Positions 23,363 to 49,119 of a stretch of 64,000 bases of DNA are shown here, piece after piece. Every line of letters starts with the position of its first letter. Positions within the stretch are counted from its first letter, which is position 1. Below the pieces are notes generated by a model. The model did not search any database. It saw nothing but the letters and a program-made list of their open reading frames with translations, and was not told the DNA's origin. Both the position numbers and the translations under genes were made by a program. This DNA is from Kriegella aquimaris (GTDB lineage Bacteria; Bacteroidota; Bacteroidia; Flavobacteriales; Flavobacteriaceae). The stretch covers positions 124,001 to 188,000 of the forward strand of contig NZ_FNGV01000004.1 of assembly GCF_900103215.1 (NCBI RefSeq), written 5' to 3'.

Positions 23363-23474
23363 GTATCCGTTCGCAATTCCGTTATCATCCTCATAAATCC
23401 AAAAGGTCCAAAACGGTTTTTTTCAGTAAAATATATCAAGTTAGGAATAGGGACAGACAAGTTTGCCTCTCTTT

Positions 23475-23588
23475 GTTATCTGCCGGGATACCGAAACGAA
23501 TTCGAAACCAGGTAGAATGTAGCACCTTCTTTTGGCAAAGGGTTGCTAAGGCTTCACAGGGTCTAATCCCTCCGCCTTTCTTGATAAC
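23475..23588 (-). ncRNA. SAM-I (S-box) riboswitch upstream of metH
   Basis: On the minus strand the element starts GTTATCAAGA, continues with GGCGGAGGGA, AGACCC, GAAGCC, TTAGCAACC and GGTGCTA, and closes with GATAAC. P1 is GTTATC (23588-23583) paired with GATAAC (23480-23475). These are the conserved S-box features, including the K-turn and the J3/4 region. It controls the metH-fourhelix-metH-metF unit. No clear terminator follows within the 110-base leader, so the output mechanism is not obvious. Confidence 0.93.
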
Positions 23589-23646
23589 TTACAGTTTTTT
23601 TAATGAACTCACGAACCTGTCTCTCAATAGGTGACGGGTTCAAATG

Positions 23647-39693: not shown

Positions 39694-42600
39694 CTACCCC
39701 TTCTCAGCTATCCGTAGTATATCGCCAAAAACACCTCTAGCGGTTACTGCGGCACCGGCACCGGCACCTTGAATAACCAACGGGTTTTCACCATAAGACT
39801 CCGTATATATTTCGATAATCGAATCGGATCCTTTTACTTGCCCTAAAGCACTTTCTTTGGGTACGGATACTAATTTGACATCCAAAATTCCTTTTTCCTT
39901 TTGCAAATTACCGTGCAAATCGCCCACGTAACGCAGTACCTGATTCGGTTTTTGATTTTTCTTTATCTCATTGAACTTATCATCGAGTACATCAAGGTTC
40001 TTTAAAAAGAAATCTACATCCCCTTTCTGCAAGGCACCCGGAATCAAGTTCTCGATATTGATATCAGCGAATTCGTTATGCAAATCAAGCTCCCGTGCCA
40101 AAATCAGCAATTTACGCCCCACATCATTTCCGGAAAGGTCTTCCCGTGGGTCTGGTTCGGTAAACCCCTTTTGCATGGCATCTTTTAAAATCGAGGAAAA
40201 TGGTGCGCCTACCTCTGAAAAGGTATTGAAAATATAGCTTAACGAGCCTGAAAAAACACCTTTGATCCTGGTAATGTTCTCTCCGGACAAATGCAAGAGT
40301 TTAATCGTATCGATTAACGGTAATCCGGCACCCACATTGGTCTCGTACAAATATTGTTTTTGATTTTTCACCAACTCTTCCCGTAGCAATTGATAATAAT
40401 CGAACCCTAATGTATTCGCTATTTTGTTGGAGGATACCAGATCAAAACCATTTTCTACAAACTCAAAATAGTTCGCTACAAAATCGGAACTCGCCGTATT
40501 ATCGACCACAATTAAATTCTCAAGATGGTTCTTTCTTGCATAGTCAAAGATGTCTTTTAATTCGTATGGCTGCCCCTTATCCTTAATGGCAGATTTCCAC
40601 GTTTTAGGAATTCCATCTTTACTGAATAACACTTTTTTAGAATTGGCTACTGCAAAAACATTCAAATCGACCTGTTTTCTTTTTTCAATGGTCTTGGAAG
40701 ATTTCAAGATTTGGTCTATCAACGTACCTCCTACATTTCCATGACCAAAAATGGCGATATTCACTTTTTTGTTGATGCCGAAAATTTGTCCGTGCATAAC
40801 GTTCAATGCCTTATGCAAGTCAGATTTTTTGACAACCAGACTCACATTTTTGCCTGAAACGGTATTATTAAAAAGTAAAGGAACGATTTGGTTTTTAATC
40901 AATGCATTGTACGGCTTATGAAACGTACTCAAGTCTTGTCCTACAATGGAAATTACCGAAACCCCTTCCGTCACGGTAATCATATTTATGTCTTTGGATT
41001 TAAAATCACCTGTAAACTCTTCCTCTAAAGCTCTTTTGGCACGCTGTGCGCGATCTTGTTTTACGACAAGACCGATTCCTCTTTCCGAAGAACCTTGTGC
41101 AATGATACTTACGCTAATATTATTAGCCTCTAAAGTTTTAAAAATACGGGCATCGATACCTACTTTACCTAAAAGCCCCCTACCTTCTAAATTTATTAGC
41201 GCCACATCTTCAATGACCGAGAGCGACTTGATACCTTCCTTGCTTGATTTCGCACTAATCAAAGTGCCTTCGTTATCATCATTATAGGTATTGAGAATAC
41301 GTAACGGAATGTTCTTCTCTATCAGTGGAATTATCGTTTTCGCATGTAAAATGGTAGCCCCGAAATTCGCCAGTTCATTAGCTTCGGCATACGAGAGGTT
41401 TGCTATGCGCTTCGCCTCGGAAACATAATCTGGATTGGCCGTAAAAATACCGTCTACATGTGTATAATTCTGTAATTCTTCGGCATCTAAAAAATTAGCG
41501 ATCAAAGCCGCAGAATAATTGCTTCCGTTTCTACCCAAAGTGGTGGTCTCCCCGTTTAAGGTCGATGCAATAAAACCCGTTACCACTGCCACATGATCAT
41601 CCCCTAATTCAGAAAATCGCTTGAGTATGTTCTCTTTGGAAACATGCTCCAAAAGTTTGGCATCACCAAAGGTATCATCTGTTTTAATAAGTTCCCTGGT
41701 ATCGAACAATTCAGCCTTAATGCCTTTTCCGATCAACAATTTGGTAATAAGCTTGGCCGAAAACAATTCACCATAAGCCAATACCTCATCCTTAATTTTC
41801 GGACTATAATCGCCCAATAACGATACCCCTTCAAAGAGCTTTACCAACCCCCTGAATTCGTCAGAAAGATTGACGTTTTTAAAAGAATGTTTTTGATACT
41901 TCTCAAAAGCCTCAAAATCTTTTTTATAATCTTCCCCGTTAGCTGCCTTTTCCAACATGACCTCTAGCTGATCTGTACTTTTCCCTCTGGCGGAAAGGAC
42001 TACCGCTATTTTTTCTTCATTTTTGACCTTATCGGAGATAATTTCGAGCACTCTGCCCAAGCCTTCACCGTTACTCAACGATTTACCACCAAATTTTAAA
42101 ACCTTTATCTTTTTTGATTTTCCATTTTGGTTAAATATACCGTTTAGCAGTTTCTGCATCTGATCGAACTCAATCAAAAAGGCATCATGACCATGAAGTG
42201 ATTGTACTTCGCCATAGGTCACATTACTGTTCGCCTGGGCCAATTGTTTGAAGGTGTCTTTATTTTCTTTTGCTGTAAAGAACAAATCTGAATCGACCCC
42301 AATAATATGAATATTGGTATCACTGTTCTGCAAGTCTATAAAAGCCTGTTCCCCATTTCTAGTGATGTCAATGGTTTTCAGCAATTGATTCATCAACTTA
42401 TAGGCTGACAATTGAAACCTATCTTTTAATTTATCACCGTGGTGCATCAACCAACTTTCAACGTTGAACACCTGAAGTTCTTTATTGGTACTCCTTTTAA
42501 AACGCTCTTTAAACGATTCAGGCGTGCGGTAGCACAACATGGCGTGCATGCGCGCATCGTGTACCGGATGTTTTGAATTTATTAAAAATTGCTCTTGAAT

Positions 42601-43086
42601 CTGGCAATTGGCGATAAGCCAATCGGTCGATTTCCAATCCGATGCCACAGGAACAAGATGCTCCGTAATTTTCGGATTCAAAGCGGCCATTTCCCAAGCG
42701 ATGCCACCACCTAAGGATCCCCCGATTATGGCGAACAATTTCTTTATTTTGAGCTCTTGAAGTCCCCACAAAAATATTTGAGCCATATCACCGGACACAA
42801 AATCTTTATAATTCTCGATAACAAAACCATCATGCCCATTACCTGGAACATTAAAGGCTAGAACTGTATATTTATTGGTATCGATACATTTGCCTTCCCC
42901 AATAATGGCAGACCACCAACCATCGTCTCCGGTGACATTGGAGTTGCCGGTCAAAGCATGATTGACCAAAACAATTGGTGCCGAATGCAATTCTTTACCA
43001 AATACTTGGTAAGAAAGGTCGATAGGCTGAGAGACCCCGCTAAGCGTGGTGAAATTCTTAAGTTTGAGGTGATGTAACATAGTCAT
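39694..43086 (-). CDS. thrA: Trifunctional homoserine O-acyltransferase / aspartokinase / homoserine dehydrogenase fusion
   Basis: A 1130-residue protein. Residues about 1-320 are a MetX-type alpha/beta-hydrolase: ALTGNSNVTGDDGWW, nucleophile Ser124 in IGGSLGGGIAWEMA, Asp in GVDSDLFF and His in SLHGHDAFLIE. Residues about 326-770 are aspartokinase plus ACT domains (KVLKFGGKSLSNGE, FIASTLNGETTTLGRNGSNYS, VIEDVALINLEGRGLLGKVG). Residues about 777-1130 are homoserine dehydrogenase (NIAIFGHGNVGGTL, KGVFSGSLSYIFN, FTEPDPREDLSGNDVGRKL). Bifunctional AK-HSD is common; an N-terminal MetX fusion carries aspartate to O-acylhomoserine (the aspartate-semialdehyde dehydrogenase step excepted) on one chain. 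ATG 43086, or 43080. 46 bases after metY. Confidence 0.93.
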   Translation of the reverse strand: MTMLHHLKLKNFTTLSGVSQPIDLSYQVFGKELHSAPIVLVNHALTGNSNVTGDDGWWSAIIGEGKCIDTNKYTVLAFNVPGNGHDGFVIENYKDFVSGDMAQIFLWGLQELKIKKLFAIIGGSLGGGIAWEMAALNPKITEHLVPVASDWKSTDWLIANCQIQEQFLINSKHPVHDARMHAMLCYRTPESFKERFKRSTNKELQVFNVESWLMHHGDKLKDRFQLSAYKLMNQLLKTIDITRNGEQAFIDLQNSDTNIHIIGVDSDLFFTAKENKDTFKQLAQANSNVTYGEVQSLHGHDAFLIEFDQMQKLLNGIFNQNGKSKKIKVLKFGGKSLSNGEGLGRVLEIISDKVKNEEKIAVVLSARGKSTDQLEVMLEKAANGEDYKKDFEAFEKYQKHSFKNVNLSDEFRGLVKLFEGVSLLGDYSPKIKDEVLAYGELFSAKLITKLLIGKGIKAELFDTRELIKTDDTFGDAKLLEHVSKENILKRFSELGDDHVAVVTGFIASTLNGETTTLGRNGSNYSAALIANFLDAEELQNYTHVDGIFTANPDYVSEAKRIANLSYAEANELANFGATILHAKTIIPLIEKNIPLRILNTYNDDNEGTLISAKSSKEGIKSLSVIEDVALINLEGRGLLGKVGIDARIFKTLEANNISVSIIAQGSSERGIGLVVKQDRAQRAKRALEEEFTGDFKSKDINMITVTEGVSVISIVGQDLSTFHKPYNALIKNQIVPLLFNNTVSGKNVSLVVKKSDLHKALNVMHGQIFGINKKVNIAIFGHGNVGGTLIDQILKSSKTIEKRKQVDLNVFAVANSKKVLFSKDGIPKTWKSAIKDKGQPYELKDIFDYARKNHLENLIVVDNTASSDFVANYFEFVENGFDLVSSNKIANTLGFDYYQLLREELVKNQKQYLYETNVGAGLPLIDTIKLLHLSGENITRIKGVFSGSLSYIFNTFSEVGAPFSSILKDAMQKGFTEPDPREDLSGNDVGRKLLILARELDLHNEFADINIENLIPGALQKGDVDFFLKNLDVLDDKFNEIKKNQKPNQVLRYVGDLHGNLQKEKGILDVKLVSVPKESALGQVKGSDSIIEIYTESYGENPLVIQGAGAGAAVTARGVFGDILRIAEKG

Positions 43087-43132
43087 CAATTAGACCTTTC
43101 GGGTATTATCGACCCGAAAGGTCCGTTTCAAT

Positions 43133-44407
43133 TTATAGTGTTGCGAAAGCTTGTTCTAAATCGGCTTTAAGATCATCAAGATCTTCCAAGCCTACGGACA
43201 AACGAATCAAATCTTGACCAACTCCTGCGGCATCTTGCTGCTCTGCTGTCAATTGTTGGTGTGTTGTACTTGCCGGATGAATTATCAAAGATTTGGTATC
43301 ACCGATATTTGCCAACAAAGAGAATATCTTAGTCGCATCGGTAAGCTTCTTTGCAGCTTCAAATCCGCCTTTTATGCCAAATGTCACCAATCCACTTTGT
43401 CCTTTTGGTAAATATTCCTGTGCCAAATCGTAGTATTTGCTACTCTTCAAGCCTGGGTAATTCACCCATTCTACTTCTTCCCTAGCTTCTAACCAAGTAG
43501 CCAAAGCCAAGGCGTTTTCGCTGTGTTGTTTTATACGTACCGATAGGGTCTCCAAACCTTGAATAATTTGGAACGCATTAAACGGACTTAACGCTCCACC
43601 AAAATCACGTAATCCTTCTAAAATCAATTTAAAAGTAAAGGCGGCAGCACCCAAAGCTTCGCTATAGACCAAACCATGGTAGCCTGCGGAAGGCTCCGTG
43701 AATTCTGGAAATTTCCCGTTTGTCCAATCAAAAGTTCCCGCATCGATTACGGCCCCACCTAAAGAGGTTCCTTGACCACCGATATATTTTGTAAGTGAGT
43801 GAACGACCAAGTTTGCACCATATTCAATAGGATTTAATAGCGCAGGTGAGGCAACTGTATTATCAACGATGAATGGAACTTGGGCTGCTTGGGCTTGTTT
43901 TGAGATTGCCTTTAAGTCCAATACATCCAATTTCGGGTTTCCTAGTGACTCTACGAAAAATGCGCGGGTATTATCTTTTACAGCTTTTCCAAAACTTTCC
44001 GGATCGGAAGCATCGACAAACGTAGTCGTAATGCCCAATCTTGGCAACGTAACATTCAATAAATTAAAAGTCCCACCGTATAAACTACTCGAAGCCACAA
44101 TATGGTCACCCGATTTTAATAGCGTCATTAAACTTGAAGAAATAGCGGAAGCGCCCGAAGCAAAAACTACAGCTCCGACACCACCTTCCAAAGCCGCCAA
44201 TCTATTTTGTAAAATTTCATTGGTAGGATTGTTCAACCGTGTGTAAATGAACCCTAATTCCGCTAATGAGAACAAATTAGCCGCATGATCTGTATTATCA
44301 AAAACATACGATGAAGTCTGATAGATAGGAACTGCTCGTGTTCCTGCTGTTTTTGTTGTATCATGCCCGGCATGCAAAGCATTCGTTGAAAATTTTTGGT
44401 CACTCAT
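43133..44407 (-). CDS. metY: O-acetylhomoserine sulfhydrylase (aminocarboxypropyltransferase)
   Basis: MetY joins O-acetylhomoserine and sulfide to homocysteine. The 424-residue PLP enzyme has FSTNALHAGHDTT, YTRLNNPTNEILQNRLAALEGG, VESLGNPKLDVLDL, DNTVASPALLNP, the PLP-lysine in VHSLTKYIGGQGTSLGG, and SLLANIGDTKSLIIHPASTTHQQL. The 20-residue insertion after the lysine is typical of MetY, longer than in MetB. First gene below a SAM-I riboswitch; ATG at 44407 is preceded by a 197-base leader. Confidence 0.95.
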   Translation of the reverse strand: MSDQKFSTNALHAGHDTTKTAGTRAVPIYQTSSYVFDNTDHAANLFSLAELGFIYTRLNNPTNEILQNRLAALEGGVGAVVFASGASAISSSLMTLLKSGDHIVASSSLYGGTFNLLNVTLPRLGITTTFVDASDPESFGKAVKDNTRAFFVESLGNPKLDVLDLKAISKQAQAAQVPFIVDNTVASPALLNPIEYGANLVVHSLTKYIGGQGTSLGGAVIDAGTFDWTNGKFPEFTEPSAGYHGLVYSEALGAAAFTFKLILEGLRDFGGALSPFNAFQIIQGLETLSVRIKQHSENALALATWLEAREEVEWVNYPGLKSSKYYDLAQEYLPKGQSGLVTFGIKGGFEAAKKLTDATKIFSLLANIGDTKSLIIHPASTTHQQLTAEQQDAAGVGQDLIRLSVGLEDLDDLKADLEQAFATL

Positions 44408-44421
44408 AATCTTTTAGTTTT

Positions 44422-44478
44422 ATGTATCCGTTATTATTTAGATACGGGTTTTTTAATAAACTCCCATTTTCAATGGGA
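44422..44478 (-). other. Leader elements between the metY riboswitch and metY
   Basis: Two items. A perfect hairpin TCCCATT-GAA-AATGGGA (44478-44462, minus strand) followed by GTTTATT, a weak terminator candidate. Then AACGGATACAT (44432-44422), an 11-base sequence identical to one at the metH start (23371-23361). In this leader GTATC...GATAC can fold locally. Together these are the likely expression platform of the riboswitch. Confidence 0.5.
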
Positions 44479-44604
44479 ATATAATTATTCTTGAGGCATG
44501 AAAGTGCTCAAAAAAAATTAAAAAGCCAAACCCTGCGCCGACCGCAATCAGGTAAAATCAAAAAGTTAAAAAGAAAGAGAAATTACTATTGTAATTCGTT
44601 TTTC

Positions 44605-44746
44605 GTTATCTATTCCTGCCTTTAAGGTAAAAGGTGTTGAATTATGTATTCAACGTCAAGATAGAATTTAGCACCTTCTTTACGTAAAGGTTGTAAAGGG
44701 TTGCTAAGGTTTCAAAGGGTCTATTCCCTCCACCTTTCTTGATAAC
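44605..44746 (-). ncRNA. SAM-I (S-box) riboswitch upstream of metY
   Basis: Minus strand GTTATCAAGAAAGG, GGAGGGA, AGACCC, GAAACC, TTAGCAACC, GGTGCTA, closing with GATAAC. P1 is formed by 44746-44741 and 44610-44605. It differs from the metH copy by a longer P4 arm (GTTGAATACATAATTCAAC forms a perfect stem). Controls metY, the MetX-AK-HSD fusion and metZ. Confidence 0.93.
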
Positions 44747-44776
44747 CATTCAATATATGTTTGAACTTTGGATTGA

Positions 44777-44806
44777 CAAATATAATGGCGGAAAACTAAA
44801 ATGCAA
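44777..44806 (-). promoter_or_regulatory. Promoter of the metY riboswitch unit
   Basis: Minus strand TTG (44806-44804), 19-base spacer, TATATTTG (44784-44777): a full match to the Bacteroidota consensus. Predicted start about 30 bases before the riboswitch. Confidence 0.75.
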
Positions 44807-44833
44807 TACTTATTTTCAAAATAATTTTCCGCC
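44787..44833. repeat. 9-bp inverted repeat over the metY promoter
   Basis: GGCGGAAAA (44787-44795) lies in the spacer between -33 and -7, TTTTCCGCC (44825-44833) lies upstream of -33. The two arms bracket the -33 element and would suit a dimeric regulator. Confidence 0.6.
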
Positions 44834-44882
44834 AATGTGGGGAAACACCCCAAATAATGCTCAAAAAGAACAGTGGAAACGC

Positions 44883-46139
44883 TTACAATTTAAAAGCAGC
44901 CTTCACTTCATCGAGCATATCTAATTTTTCCCAGGTAAAGAGTTCAACCTCTTTTTCTATTCTCCCGTTATAGGGCGATTCGAATACCTTAGTTACCATT
45001 TTATTCGCTTTGCCCATATGACCATAGGCAGCAGATTCGAGATAGATGGGCTCCCGTAATTTTAACCTTTTTTCAATTGCAAAAGGTCGCATATCGAATA
45101 GTTCGGAAACCTTTTCAGCGATTTCCCCATCGGTTAAATCAACATTAGCCCTTCCATAAGTATCTACAAAAATAGAAGTTGGTTCCACTACACCAATAGC
45201 ATAGCTTACCTGTACCAATATTTCATCGGCAACCCCTGCTGCAACTAAATTCTTCGCTACATGTCTTGCGGCGTATGCAGCACTTCTATCAACCTTACTC
45301 GGGTCCTTACCACTAAATGCACCACCTCCATGGGCACCTTTTCCTCCATAGGTATCAACAATGATCTTTCTACCGGTAAGACCAGTATCCCCATGTGGAC
45401 CACCGATTACAAATTTTCCTGTAGGATTGATATGGTATGTAATCTGGTCATCGAACAAAGCTTGAATTTCTTTCGGTAATTGTGCTTTGACCCTAGGTAT
45501 TAAAATCGAAATAATATCTTTTTTAATTTTCGCCAACATCGCATTGTCATCTTGATCAAAGGCATCGTGCTGGGTAGAGATAACAATGGTATCGATACGC
45601 TGTGGTACATTTCCATCAGAATACTCAATGGTAACTTGTGATTTCGCATCAGGCCGTAAATAATCGATTTCTTTTAGCTCGCGTCTTAAATCGGCCAAAA
45701 CCTGCAGAATCTTATGAGAGATATCAAGTGCCAGAGGCATGTAATTCTCCGTTTCTTTTGTGGCATAGCCGAACATCATTCCTTGGTCACCCGCACCTTG
45801 CTCTTCTTTCGAACCTCGGTCAACACCTTGATTGATGTCTTGAGACTGCTCATGAATGAGTGAAATGACCCCACAGGAATCTCCACTGAATTGGTACTCG
45901 CCTTTAGTGTAGCCGATCTTGTTGATTATCTCTCGGGCAATAGTCTGTACATCTAAGTACGTATTGCTTTTCACCTCACCGGCTAAAACAACCTGACCCG
46001 TTGTAACCAACGTTTCACAAGCTACTTTACTTTCTGGGTCGAAAGCTAAAAAATGATCCAATAAAGCATCACTGATTTGATCGGCGACTTTATCGGGATG
46101 TCCTTCACTAACAGATTCCGAAGTAAACAAATACGACAT
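44883..46139 (-). CDS. metK: S-adenosylmethionine synthetase
   Basis: MetK makes SAM from methionine and ATP. The 418-residue length is slightly above the usual 385-400. Motifs: [21 protein letters not shown] (in part), [12 protein letters not shown] (loop), [38 protein letters not shown] at 46139. It follows a SAM-II-like leader element and its own -7 element, so it is a separate transcript from metY. A GGGG/CCCC hairpin lies past the stop without a T-run. Confidence 0.97.
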
Positions 46140-46215
46140 GATATTACTTTTTTTTTGAAAAAGAAGATTTGAAAAAATTGCTGCAAGCTAAAGGAAGTAT
46201 GATATAAAAATATCA

Positions 46216-46323
46216 ACTGCTTTAGCATTTTTTAAACTGAATAAATTTTTAAATCAACCCTTTTATCGGGTCGCACAATTTATTCAGAATACTTGAGGTT
46301 GCAATCAGTCAAATCCCTCCTCA
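46216..46323 (-). ncRNA. SAM-II-like riboswitch upstream of metK
   Basis: Minus strand: P1 5' arm TGAGG (46323-46319), loop GATTTGACTGATTGCAA (46315-46299), P1 3' arm CCTCA (46298-46294), a 10-bp inserted stem CTGAATAAAT/ATTTATTCAG (46287-46278 and 46246-46237), then ATGCTAAAGCAGT (46228-46216). The loop and the GCTAAAG segment match the SAM-II pattern GATTTGACC...TTGCA and GCTAAA. ACTG in the loop pairs with CAGT at the 3' end, the expected pseudoknot. A perfect hairpin (46200-46215) follows at once. A -7 element lies 14 bases upstream. Identified by eye, not by covariance search; the inserted stem is unlike proteobacterial SAM-II. Confidence 0.72.
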
Positions 46324-46336
46324 TGATTATGAGCTA

Positions 46337-46344
46337 CAAAAGTA
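46337..46344 (-). promoter_or_regulatory. -7 promoter element of metK
   Basis: Minus strand TACTTTTG, perfect TAnnTTTG, ending 14 bases before the first base of the SAM-II-like element. No clear -33 TTG. Confidence 0.55.
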
Positions 46345-46440
46345 TAAAAAATGTTTTGTTCTGAAAGTGATCGGGTTGTAATTTGTCAAACAGTATCGAA
46401 AATCAGATTTAATGCAACCGTATAAAGAAGCCCCTTTACC

Positions 46441-49119
46441 TTATATATCGTACTTGATTGAGAACAGCACATACCTGGGCTGCACAAAATATGATTGTGT
46501 TGAGAAAAAGAGTTCATTGGTACTATCTTGGTTAAGTATGCTAGTATTAAATAGGTTGGTGCCTTTGATACCGAACTCCCAACGGCTATCCTTTTGCTGG
46601 TAGGTCAAATTTGATTCCAAAAAGCTATACGCATTATCAATGGTATTTTCTTTATCGGTATAGTTGTAATAATCATAATCAAGTGTAAAAATAAAATTCT
46701 TAAGAAAAGCTGTATCAAACCGGGCATAGGGTCTGCTTGTGTAATAGGTGGTTTCGCGACCGCCGTTGTCATAGTTGTTCACATTATAGCGATACCCCAG
46801 TTCAAGATTCGGCGCATTTTTAAAGTTGGTAGACAGTGCCCCGGTATAGTTCTGAGTCAAAGAATTCGAGGTGCGCTGCGCATTATCTACCAAGTTATTG
46901 GTCGTAGACCATGACAAGCTTCCTCTGACAGAACCCTTAATCTTACCGAAAGTACGCTCATATCGGCCATTTGCGGATAGTGATTCATCTTCAAAATTAG
47001 AGTTGATCGTCGTACCGATTCGGTTAATTGCTACAATATTGGCACTGCTTTTTAAAGCGTCGATTCTTTTGGTGTAGGTCACATTACCAAATATATTCGT
47101 GAAATTGAACATATTGAAACTGAAAAAATTTAATGAGAGGTTATGGTTCAATGCACTCTCAAGATCTCTATTACCACGATAGACCGAATTGTAATTGTTG
47201 AGCACATACCCTTGGGCAAATTTATTAACATCGGTAAATGAGCGGGTCACACGATAATTAAACCTTAGGTTTTCCGACTTTTTCAGTTGTGCATTAATGT
47301 ATACGTCGGGTAATAACGAAGTAAGATTGTCTTCCACAACATTCCCCAGTTGATCATTTTTAACATTGAACTGATGTAAGGTAAGGCCCGGGTTGAAGGT
47401 GAAAATTCCTGATATTACTTTATAATGAAACCCCAAGTAGAGATCCGACACATTAAAGGTTACATCATTTTCAAAGTCCGTTCCATTCATATCCAAAGTG
47501 CTACCTCCATCTAAAATCTGATAAATCGCCGAATTAAAATTCTGATGGCTTTGTGTCGTTCCTAAAGTAAAGTTCAAATTACTTTTGGCTCCCAAAACAT
47601 GATAATAATCGACTTTGGCATCGACTTTATTGGTTACGACGTTCTTGACTTGATTTAAATTATAAAGATTTTGATTTTCATCCACAGGAAATATACTAGT
47701 AAAAGCAAACTCATTTCGTACCGCTTCATAAAACGGGTCTTCATCTTGATACAAATGCTGGGCTTCTACCGCAAAGATATTTTTGTCATCCAAAGTGTAG
47801 TAAAGGTTCAAATTTTGATTTACCGACAAGGGCTTTTGTTTTTTGACTTCTGAAATTTCATCGGTAATATTAGCTATTGAGAGTACATCTACCACTTCAT
47901 TATCGTCAGATTGTTTTAGCAGTGCATCATAGTCTAACTGAAGGTTAGCGGTCGGCTTGTACCTCGCACTCAATTTGGCCAGGCCCAAATGAACCGTCTG
48001 ATCGGTATTCGTAGTTGCATTCTCAATATCGTCACTGGCAATATAAGTGGTACTTCTTTGTGATTTCATCAGGGTACCGGTGTAGGAATAGATTCCGAAC
48101 CCACTCAGATCCAACGCTTTGGTCGGCGCATAACTAAAGTTTACCGCTGCAAATTTGGTGTCGATATCGTTTGCCCTATTGTTCTGGGCAGTAGAAAGTC
48201 CTAATCCGTCAGAACCGACGCCGATAGAACTACCGCCCCGAGAATTTATATTTCTAAAACCTCCAGTAAAATTTCGGTAATCGTTACGGGTAAAGGGAAC
48301 TTCTCCCAAATTATTCAAATCCGTTATAATATTAATACTATAATCGGGACTATAATAAAATAACTTCGGATGTGCCAAATATCGGTCATCGGGGCCGTAA
48401 CCAGCGGTTAGCTCACCAAACCAAAACTTCTTTTTACCTTCTTTTAGTCGGATATTCAGAGCCACATTATCATCATCGTTCGTTAGCCCCTTCAACTGTG
48501 ACACCTCATTATAGTTCTTTAAGACCTCTACCTTGCTCAGCGCATTGGCAGGAATATTCTCGACGGCCAGTTTAGAATCGCCATCAAAAAAATCCTTTCC
48601 TTCGACCATCACTTTGGTTACAGTCTTTCCTTCCACTTCTATTTGACCGTCATCATTGACTTCGATTCCCGGTAAATTTTTCAGTACATCCTTTAATTTT
48701 TTCTCGGTACCTGAAACAAAGGAATCGGTATTGTAAATAATTGTATCCCCTTTTACTGACACGGGCATTTCGTAAGTTACTTCTACCTCATCAAGCTCGG
48801 CGGCCTGTTCTTGCATTACAATATCTTTGATAGCATTGACTTCACCTGCCGTAAAAGTAAAAGATTCGGTCTTCAGCCCTAAATAACTTACCTTAACGGT
48901 ATACTGATTCGCCGTCTTTAATTTCAGTTTGTACTGCCCCGCATGATTGGTAATACCGTAAGATTCCAAACCTTTTGTCTCCGTATTGATGGCAATCACA
49001 TTTGCCATATCAACTCCCGTACCGGTGCTATCCTTAACGGTACCTGACAGAGAAATTTCTTGGGCCGAGCCAACAAAGCTCAAGGCTAAAAAGATGATAA
49101 AAGGCAAAGTGATTTTCAT
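46441..49119 (-). CDS. Outer-membrane beta-barrel protein with carboxypeptidase-regulatory and plug domains
   Basis: An 892-residue TonB-receptor-like protein: signal peptide (ends VGSAQ), a CarboxypepD_reg-like domain (about 22-105, ISLSGTVKDSTGTGVDMANV), a plug-like region (115-230, LKDVLKNLPGIEVNDDGQI and VLKNYNEVSQLKGL) and a long barrel ending VLFSIKYDI with a terminal hydrophobic residue. It belongs to the outer-membrane beta-barrel family that commonly sits beside a GLPGLI gene, as here 51 bases upstream. No SusD partner is present, so glycan uptake is not indicated; peptide or metal handling is possible. Ligand unknown. Confidence 0.87.
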   Translation of the reverse strand: MKITLPFIIFLALSFVGSAQEISLSGTVKDSTGTGVDMANVIAINTETKGLESYGITNHAGQYKLKLKTANQYTVKVSYLGLKTESFTFTAGEVNAIKDIVMQEQAAELDEVEVTYEMPVSVKGDTIIYNTDSFVSGTEKKLKDVLKNLPGIEVNDDGQIEVEGKTVTKVMVEGKDFFDGDSKLAVENIPANALSKVEVLKNYNEVSQLKGLTNDDDNVALNIRLKEGKKKFWFGELTAGYGPDDRYLAHPKLFYYSPDYSINIITDLNNLGEVPFTRNDYRNFTGGFRNINSRGGSSIGVGSDGLGLSTAQNNRANDIDTKFAAVNFSYAPTKALDLSGFGIYSYTGTLMKSQRSTTYIASDDIENATTNTDQTVHLGLAKLSARYKPTANLQLDYDALLKQSDDNEVVDVLSIANITDEISEVKKQKPLSVNQNLNLYYTLDDKNIFAVEAQHLYQDEDPFYEAVRNEFAFTSIFPVDENQNLYNLNQVKNVVTNKVDAKVDYYHVLGAKSNLNFTLGTTQSHQNFNSAIYQILDGGSTLDMNGTDFENDVTFNVSDLYLGFHYKVISGIFTFNPGLTLHQFNVKNDQLGNVVEDNLTSLLPDVYINAQLKKSENLRFNYRVTRSFTDVNKFAQGYVLNNYNSVYRGNRDLESALNHNLSLNFFSFNMFNFTNIFGNVTYTKRIDALKSSANIVAINRIGTTINSNFEDESLSANGRYERTFGKIKGSVRGSLSWSTTNNLVDNAQRTSNSLTQNYTGALSTNFKNAPNLELGYRYNVNNYDNGGRETTYYTSRPYARFDTAFLKNFIFTLDYDYYNYTDKENTIDNAYSFLESNLTYQQKDSRWEFGIKGTNLFNTSILNQDSTNELFFSTQSYFVQPRYVLFSIKYDI

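Follow-up and report, generated by a model that had tools for sequence, protein, structure and literature searches.

How might a SAM-II riboswitch control a gene whose start codon lies well beyond the aptamer, in bacteria that hardly use Shine-Dalgarno pairing? The metK leader of Kriegella aquimaris, on the reverse strand of a 64,000-nt stretch of its genome (the window), raises this question. The Rfam SAM-II model RF01726 matches 46328..46212 (-) over its full length (model positions 1-60) with 51.0 bits (gathering score 44, E 8e-7). This is the single match above the cut-off in the whole 6.06-Mb genome, where the runner-up scores 19.1 bits. The gene downstream is identified as metK by TIGR01034 (Table 1), and its ATG, at 46139, lies 76 nt past the last base of the 3' element (CAGT). 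On the evidence of sequence, 46328..46212 (-) is a SAM-II riboswitch preceding metK, and SAM binding is predicted. A sequence-only reading of this DNA had proposed such an element about 77 bases before the ATG, had suggested a search with the Rfam model as a check, and had argued that its output mechanism must differ from that of the best-known SAM-II riboswitches. The identity and the distance agree with the present results, and the last point is borne out by a conserved complement of the aptamer (anti-aptamer) in the linker between the 3' element and metK.

Parts and distribution of the SAM-II element

The loop, the 5-bp P1, the downstream element, the ACTG/CAGT pairing and the perfect hairpin after the 3' element, all named in the earlier reading, are found in place (Table 1). 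P1 covaries across metK leaders, as that reading had anticipated: its third pair is A-T in 199, T-A in 21 and G-C in 11 of 239 rows, and its fourth is G-C in 222, A-T in 10 and T-A in 1 of 239. These rows combine the 188 leaders described below with 51 gathered later, at least three of which are repeat fetches of one genome. The P2 pseudoknot ACTG/CAGT, present in the window leader, is near-invariant over the 188 leaders and hardly covaries; its outer pair is A-T in 146, T-A in 2, G-T in 4 and nonstandard in 25 of the 177 readable leaders (11 of the 188 are unreadable).

Table 1. Features of the metK leader and their positions in the window.
Feature	Position	Strand	Basis
metK, methionine adenosyltransferase, 418 aa	44883..46139	(-)	TIGR01034, 501.6 bits (cut-off 309.4)
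Predicted SAM-state occluder CTTTTT/AAAAAG (metK -13 to -8)	46147..46163	(-)	Forced-aptamer fold
Anti-aptamer strand: GCAATT/GATTGC, TCAAATC/GATTTGA, CTTTTTCA/P1 5' strand	46156..46181	(-)	Fold with 40 nt of metK
Anti-pseudoknot strand CTTTAGC, complement of GCTAAAG	46187..46193	(-)	Pairs with 46226..46220 in free MFE
Short perfect linker hairpin GATAT-TTTT-ATATC	46201..46214	(-)	Sequence; hairpin there in forced-aptamer fold
3' element GCTAAAG (46226..46220) and CAGT (46219..46216), P2 pseudoknot 3' strand	46216..46226	(-)	RF01726 alignment
Inserted 11-bp stem CTGAATAAATT/AATTTATTCAG with nested 6-bp hairpin	46237..46287	(-)	Free MFE
P1 3' strand CCTCA	46294..46298	(-)	RF01726 alignment
Conserved loop GATTTGACTGATTGC: putative SAM-binding strand and P2 pseudoknot 5' strand ACTG	46301..46315	(-)	RF01726 alignment
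Same loop GATTTGACTGATTGC as anti-aptamer target	46301..46315	(-)	Duplex and covariation tests
P1 5' strand TGAGG	46319..46323	(-)	RF01726 alignment; P1 covariation
-7 promoter element TACTTTTG (TAnnTTTG)	46337..46344	(-)	Sequence reading

Within the family of the source organism, RF01726 is matched at E <= 0.01 in 283 of 299 genomes and above the cut-off in 275. At E <= 0.001, matches occur in 45 of 296 genomes of a phylum sample and 44 of 295 of a class sample, both of which contain genomes from that family; Bacteroides ihuae, used as a control genome, is matched as well. We fetched 251 same-family leaders in two rounds, 191 and then 60, and metK lies downstream in 189 and 59 of these, respectively. 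The first 191 comprise the window leader, the 30 best, 136 from weaker-scoring genomes that were re-searched, and 24 others. Removing two leaders without metK and one whose ATG is more than 130 nt away leaves the first set of 188. The second set of 59 consists of leaders with middle scores and spans near 60 nt, less L274, which is not followed by metK. The sets used later for covariation, independent pairs and the start region omit leaders with more than three core errors; L220, an edge locus, was passed over.

The insert between P1 and the 3' element measures 63 nt in the window. The sequence-only reading had described it as a 10-bp stem with a loop of about 31 bases; the stem is real, but it has 11 bp (46287..46277 with 46247..46237) and 29 nt between its strands, where CGACCC/GGGTTG forms the nested hairpin. 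Inserts of at least 16 nt are found in 133 of the 188 leaders of the first set, in none of the 59 of the second and in 133 of the 247 together, and inserts of at least 45 nt in 50 of the 188. Long inserts are over-represented in the first set owing to the uneven draw of its 191 leaders, and neither share can be taken as that of the family, since the first set has all the weak-scoring hits and the second only middle scores. Long inserts are folded: 109 of 129 inserts of at least 18 nt have z < -2 against mononucleotide shuffles. RF01726 was entered in 2010 as 'SAM-II long loops', from Bacteroidetes and marine sequences (PMC2864571, Table 1). The window leader shares the aptamer core, P1, the 3' element and the inserted loop or stem with that entry, and we found no difference in the aptamer from what is recorded there. 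The inserted stem is thus real yet ordinary, a feature of the known long-loop SAM-II variant.

The -7 promoter element that had been pointed out upstream of the aptamer is a recurrent feature of these leaders. Of the 188 leaders, 183 have the motif TAnnTTTG in the 60 nt preceding P1, and 6 have it in a control region 200-260 nt upstream; in the second set, 56 of the 59 leaders have it ahead of P1. Its position implies that the transcript should start shortly before the aptamer.

A complement of the aptamer in the linker

When the window leader is folded freely, the aptamer does not form and the linker folds back onto the aptamer sequence (z -4.67 against shuffles). This fold ends at the ATG; with 40 nt of metK added, the anti-aptamer pairing is the same except that CTTTTTCA also pairs with the P1 5' strand. 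The complementarity recurs among relatives. An exact complementary 6-mer (CAAATC, TCAAAT or GCAATC) is present in 130 of 188 linkers versus 13 of 188 upstream stretches of equal length, and in 36 of 59 second-set linkers versus 2 of 59 upstream controls. Over the 188 leaders, the linker and the 5' part of the aptamer form a duplex with a mean energy of -17.85 kcal/mol. The mean is -11.57 when the linkers are dinucleotide-shuffled and -10.42 when upstream sequence takes their place, and in 111 of the 188 leaders, where about 9 are expected, the own duplex is more stable than any of 20 shuffles. The 59 leaders of the second set give -17.64, -11.42 and -9.37 kcal/mol, respectively, and the own duplex is better than all shuffles in 31. 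By a threshold of better than 95% of 40 shuffles, the duplex stands out in 13 of 23 further same-family leaders (three of them second fetches), in 5 of 7 leaders from f2, another family of the same order, and in 11 of 21 leaders from other families.

Relative to the ATG, the anti-aptamer strand extends from a median of -43 to a median of -17, and in the window from -43 to -15, so that it stops where the start region begins. The pairing of the 3' element with the linker is less distinctive. In the window it reaches -9.1 kcal/mol against a mean of -6.7 for shuffled linkers; across leaders it is only slightly stronger than in shuffles (-6.83 vs -5.50). In genus g128, perhaps Flavobacterium, GAGGAAAAATTTG is the form of most listed aptamers, and ATTTTTCCTC or something close to it occurs in many linkers; by eye, this parallels a change from the GATTTG/CAAATC seen elsewhere.

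Covariation was scored in 118 leaders, using ATTTG of the aptamer and the first CAAAT of the linker as anchors. The second base before ATTTG is in Watson-Crick relation to its partner in 83 of 116 leaders (A-T 58, G-C 24, T-A 1). Shuffled partners give 54.5, and simulation along the metK tree gives 53.7 +/- 13.7, with none of 1000 simulations as high. The seven other anti-aptamer positions tested have no significance after tree correction (p >= 0.18); one of eight positions is therefore significant. In the second set, the same position is A-T in 14 and G-C in 3 of 33 leaders, with too few changes. A second approach compared independent pairs of leaders (94 disjoint leaf pairs, 70 informative). 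The own linker pairs better in 40 and the swapped linker in 23 (sign test p 0.043, Wilcoxon p 0.0015), and four control pairings gave no signal in the same test. The 3' element against the linker likewise gave no covariation signal across leaders with independent pairs. Restriction to supported branches leaves just 6 and 3 pairs, at about 2.9:0.1 and 1.6:0.1 in the expected direction.

Could the complementarity be without function, arising from U- and C-rich linkers and shared ancestry? The linkers of relatives also pair well when swapped (-16.2 vs -17.85 kcal/mol, and -15.61 vs -17.64 in the second set). This explanation is very improbable, as it is contradicted by the dinucleotide shuffles, by the tree simulation, by the independent pairs with their four controls, and by the second set. 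At the level of sequence comparison, the anti-aptamer is shown to covary with the aptamer beyond shared ancestry across the 188 leaders, and the anti-aptamer helix is well supported as a real, conserved element. The linker holds a conserved complement of the aptamer, which is probably the switch itself in bacteria that hardly use Shine-Dalgarno pairing.

Predicted states of the start region and candidate outputs

Two outputs known for related riboswitches can be compared with the leader directly. SAM-II riboswitches of alpha- and betaproteobacteria are described as mostly linked to terminators (PMC2258182, PMC6061858), and putative intrinsic terminators are reported for many SAM-II representatives (RF00521, the metA element; PMC1273637). 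As described there, the metA element shares with the metK leaders P1 and the pseudoknot, a position before a SAM or methionine gene, and a promoter a few nucleotides before P1. The leaders studied here differ from it in their linkers, which carry the anti-aptamer and have terminator-like hairpins in 1 of 188 cases, the same as after shuffling (1 of 188). The window leader has no terminator-like hairpin with a U-tract; the sole one in 44400-46500 is at 44547..44533, outside the leader. We therefore rejected an intrinsic terminator between P2 and metK, and classical SAM-II attenuation by such a terminator is extremely improbable.

The second output is masking of a Shine-Dalgarno sequence. SAM-V, found in marine alphaproteobacteria and Bacteroidetes, has a pseudoknot close to that of SAM-II and acts translationally, according to PMC6061858, by masking the Shine-Dalgarno sequence directly, unlike the output proposed for the window. 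Masking by the P2 3' strand, as in metX-type SAM-II or SAM-V, was rejected here because the strand is 76 nt from the ATG. A scan of the window at gathering scores found no SAM class besides SAM and SAM-II.

What the linker may act on instead is suggested by translation initiation in Flavobacterium johnsoniae, where the anti-Shine-Dalgarno sequence is reported to be sequestered, and adenines at -3, -6, -12 and -13 together with low structure to favor initiation (PMC6847099, PMC9976891). Each leader was folded twice, once without constraints and once with a forced aptamer, in which P1 is paired and neither the loop nor the 3' element may pair. The unpaired probabilities of A-13 and A-12 in the window fall from 0.99 and 0.98 in the free fold to 0.18 and 0.21 with the forced aptamer. 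The mean unpaired probability of -15..+4 over the 188 leaders decreases from 0.614 to 0.522, and the effect is one-sided: the loss exceeds 0.1 in 71 of 188 leaders and a gain of this size occurs in 5, versus 31 losing and 30 gaining of 376 with shuffled linker heads. Repetition in the second set gives 20 losing and 2 gaining of 59 (18 and 14 of 236 when shuffled).

The effect depends on the stretch considered. Losers to gainers in the first set are 71:9 for -15..0, 75:17 for -13..-8 and 67:18 for -5..+5; the ratio is 20:17 for -20..+20 and is reversed, 33:65, for -20..-10, a stretch that includes the freed anti-aptamer strand. In the window, the start region is unpaired at 0.92 in the free and 0.55 in the bound state, a drop matched by 4 of 200 shuffles. 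It is the free state that is unusual, with 3 of 200 shuffles as open, while the bound state is ordinary (123 of 200 as closed). Bound-state covering alone is similarly close to chance across leaders, falling below all eight shuffles in 30 of 188 (20.9 expected) and above all in 19. When the fold ends at the ATG, the CUUUUU hairpin of the window persists in the free state, which makes the prediction dependent on the codons after the ATG.

For 29 of 188 leaders, pairing of the linker head with the start region is among the best 5% of swaps, and the independent-pair comparison of these two segments is not significant (46 vs 35, Wilcoxon p 0.11). Pairing of the freed linker with metK codons was rejected, as own sequences gain nothing over swapped ones (mean rank 0.47, 0.50). 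The clearest start-region hairpins are seen in L070, L089 and L154, where the linker stretch ACTTCTTTA is a perfect complement of TAAAGAAGT directly before the ATG, and in short leaders such as L010 and L016, with TTGCTTT/AAAGCAA.

The start-region effect also varies among clades. It is clear in f2 leaders (6 losing vs 0 gaining of 7), as in both same-family sets. Another 18 same-family leaders, of which 15 come from g128, the largest genus sampled, show it weakly (4 vs 2; L208, L218 and L219, already used, and L200 and L206 had been dropped from this set). The 21 leaders from outside the order show no start-region effect (3 vs 2). Clades other than those with covering may have another output, for example through Rho or mRNA stability.

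Judging from these folds, the anti-aptamer seems to prevent the U-rich linker from reaching the A-rich start, and SAM would release the linker. We regard it as rather probable that the long-loop SAM-II element represses metK translation as a Shine-Dalgarno-free OFF switch; the covering of the start region is predicted by folding, and SAM binding and the OFF sign are suggested by pathway logic. The transcript would begin just upstream of the aptamer. At low SAM, one part of the linker would bind the P1 5' strand and the SAM-binding loop, and another, CTTTAGC, the 3' strand of the pseudoknot. This would dismantle the aptamer and occupy the U-rich linker, and the A-rich initiation region would stay unpaired (ON). 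When SAM is abundant, it would lock the aptamer, the first part to be made, before the linker is synthesized, and CUUUUU of the free linker could pair with AAAAAG at -13 to -8 (OFF). With pseudoknot and ligand uncounted, forcing the aptamer in the window leader costs 15.8 kcal/mol relative to the free fold, and SAM could accordingly act only while the RNA is being transcribed.

A transcriptional output is a different way to use the same anti-aptamer: the freed linker, pyrimidine-rich and poor in G, would load Rho, and transcription would stop before metK. The composition of the linkers without their last 18 nt (24% C, 12% G) and the increase in mean accessibility over -45 to -16 on forcing the aptamer are consistent with this output, which would also account for clades without start-region covering. 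However, a complement of a purine-rich aptamer is pyrimidine-rich regardless, and the one-sided effect on the start region is left unexplained; we consider control through Rho unlikely. Slightly less likely again is a role of the linker complement mainly in RNA stability or as a standby-site element, in which the helix would shield the leader or determine how ribosomes load, and SAM would alter the lifetime of the mRNA. The SAM-II riboswitch of Sinorhizobium meliloti metA is reported to have opposite effects on mRNA stability and translation (PMC9373788), the median end of the anti-aptamer strand is at -17, and many leaders are without start covering, but this alternative does not predict the one-sided start-region effect either.

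The same S. meliloti report provides a parallel to the proposed translational OFF switch, in that translation is controlled far from the riboswitch. As described there, SAM masks a Shine-Dalgarno sequence inside the riboswitch and translation starts 74 nt downstream, whereas the proposed target in the window metK leader is the A-rich region by the ATG, reached through a separate anti-aptamer. Our search of mostly open-access papers, two of which name RF01726, found no earlier description of an anti-aptamer expression platform of this kind. That flavobacteria and their near relatives share a SAM-II platform suited to ribosomes that ignore Shine-Dalgarno sequences, with SAM freeing the U-rich linker onto A-13/A-12, is a more tentative proposal, to which we give somewhat less than even credence. 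If true, it would be a riboswitch acting on an A-rich, Kozak-like start signal and set kinetically during transcription. Present in 283 of the 299 genomes of one family, these metK leaders are a defined RNA for which two states are predicted and a target is named, and they make riboswitch control of translation in lineages with blocked Shine-Dalgarno pairing accessible to reporter assays.

SAM-I neighbors and unusual gene contexts

Two SAM-I matches are also present in the window. One (44748..44639, -), at a distance of 1.5 kb from the SAM-II element, precedes an O-acetylhomoserine sulfhydrylase gene, and the other (23590..23473, -) precedes the N-terminal gene of a split metH. In the window, methionine synthesis is thus associated with SAM-I and SAM synthetase with SAM-II. 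SAM-I is found at E <= 0.001 in 234 of the 299 family genomes, and together with SAM-II in 228 of 299 (a hand count, with SAM-I present in 6 of the 16 genomes lacking SAM-II). This co-occurrence contrasts with a statement from 2007 that no single species had been found carrying both SAM-I and SAM-II. The two elements stand back to back on opposite strands, within about 300 bases of each other, in eight genomes (G229, G101, G273, G054, G039, G262, G143 and G145), and a strict SAM-I core pattern lies within 480 nt upstream on the opposite strand in 14 of 188 leaders.

Three of the 251 same-family leaders are not followed by metK: L034 (genome G004), L012 (G297) and L274 (G238), with L274 and L034 from the same genus. 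In L034, the gene after SAM-II resembles O-acetylhomoserine sulfhydrylase, and the genome, of 1.9 Mb, has no SAM-I match, as if SAM-II had replaced SAM-I. In L012, the ORF immediately after SAM-II is presumably QueF-like, and a MetH-like ORF lies farther downstream.

A further observation in the window is a 1131-aa ORF (39694..43089, -) that fuses a MetX-like domain to aspartate kinase/homoserine dehydrogenase I. The homoserine O-acetyltransferase domain covers residues 20-324, with a score below the curated cut-off, and the kinase/dehydrogenase part covers residues 329-1129.
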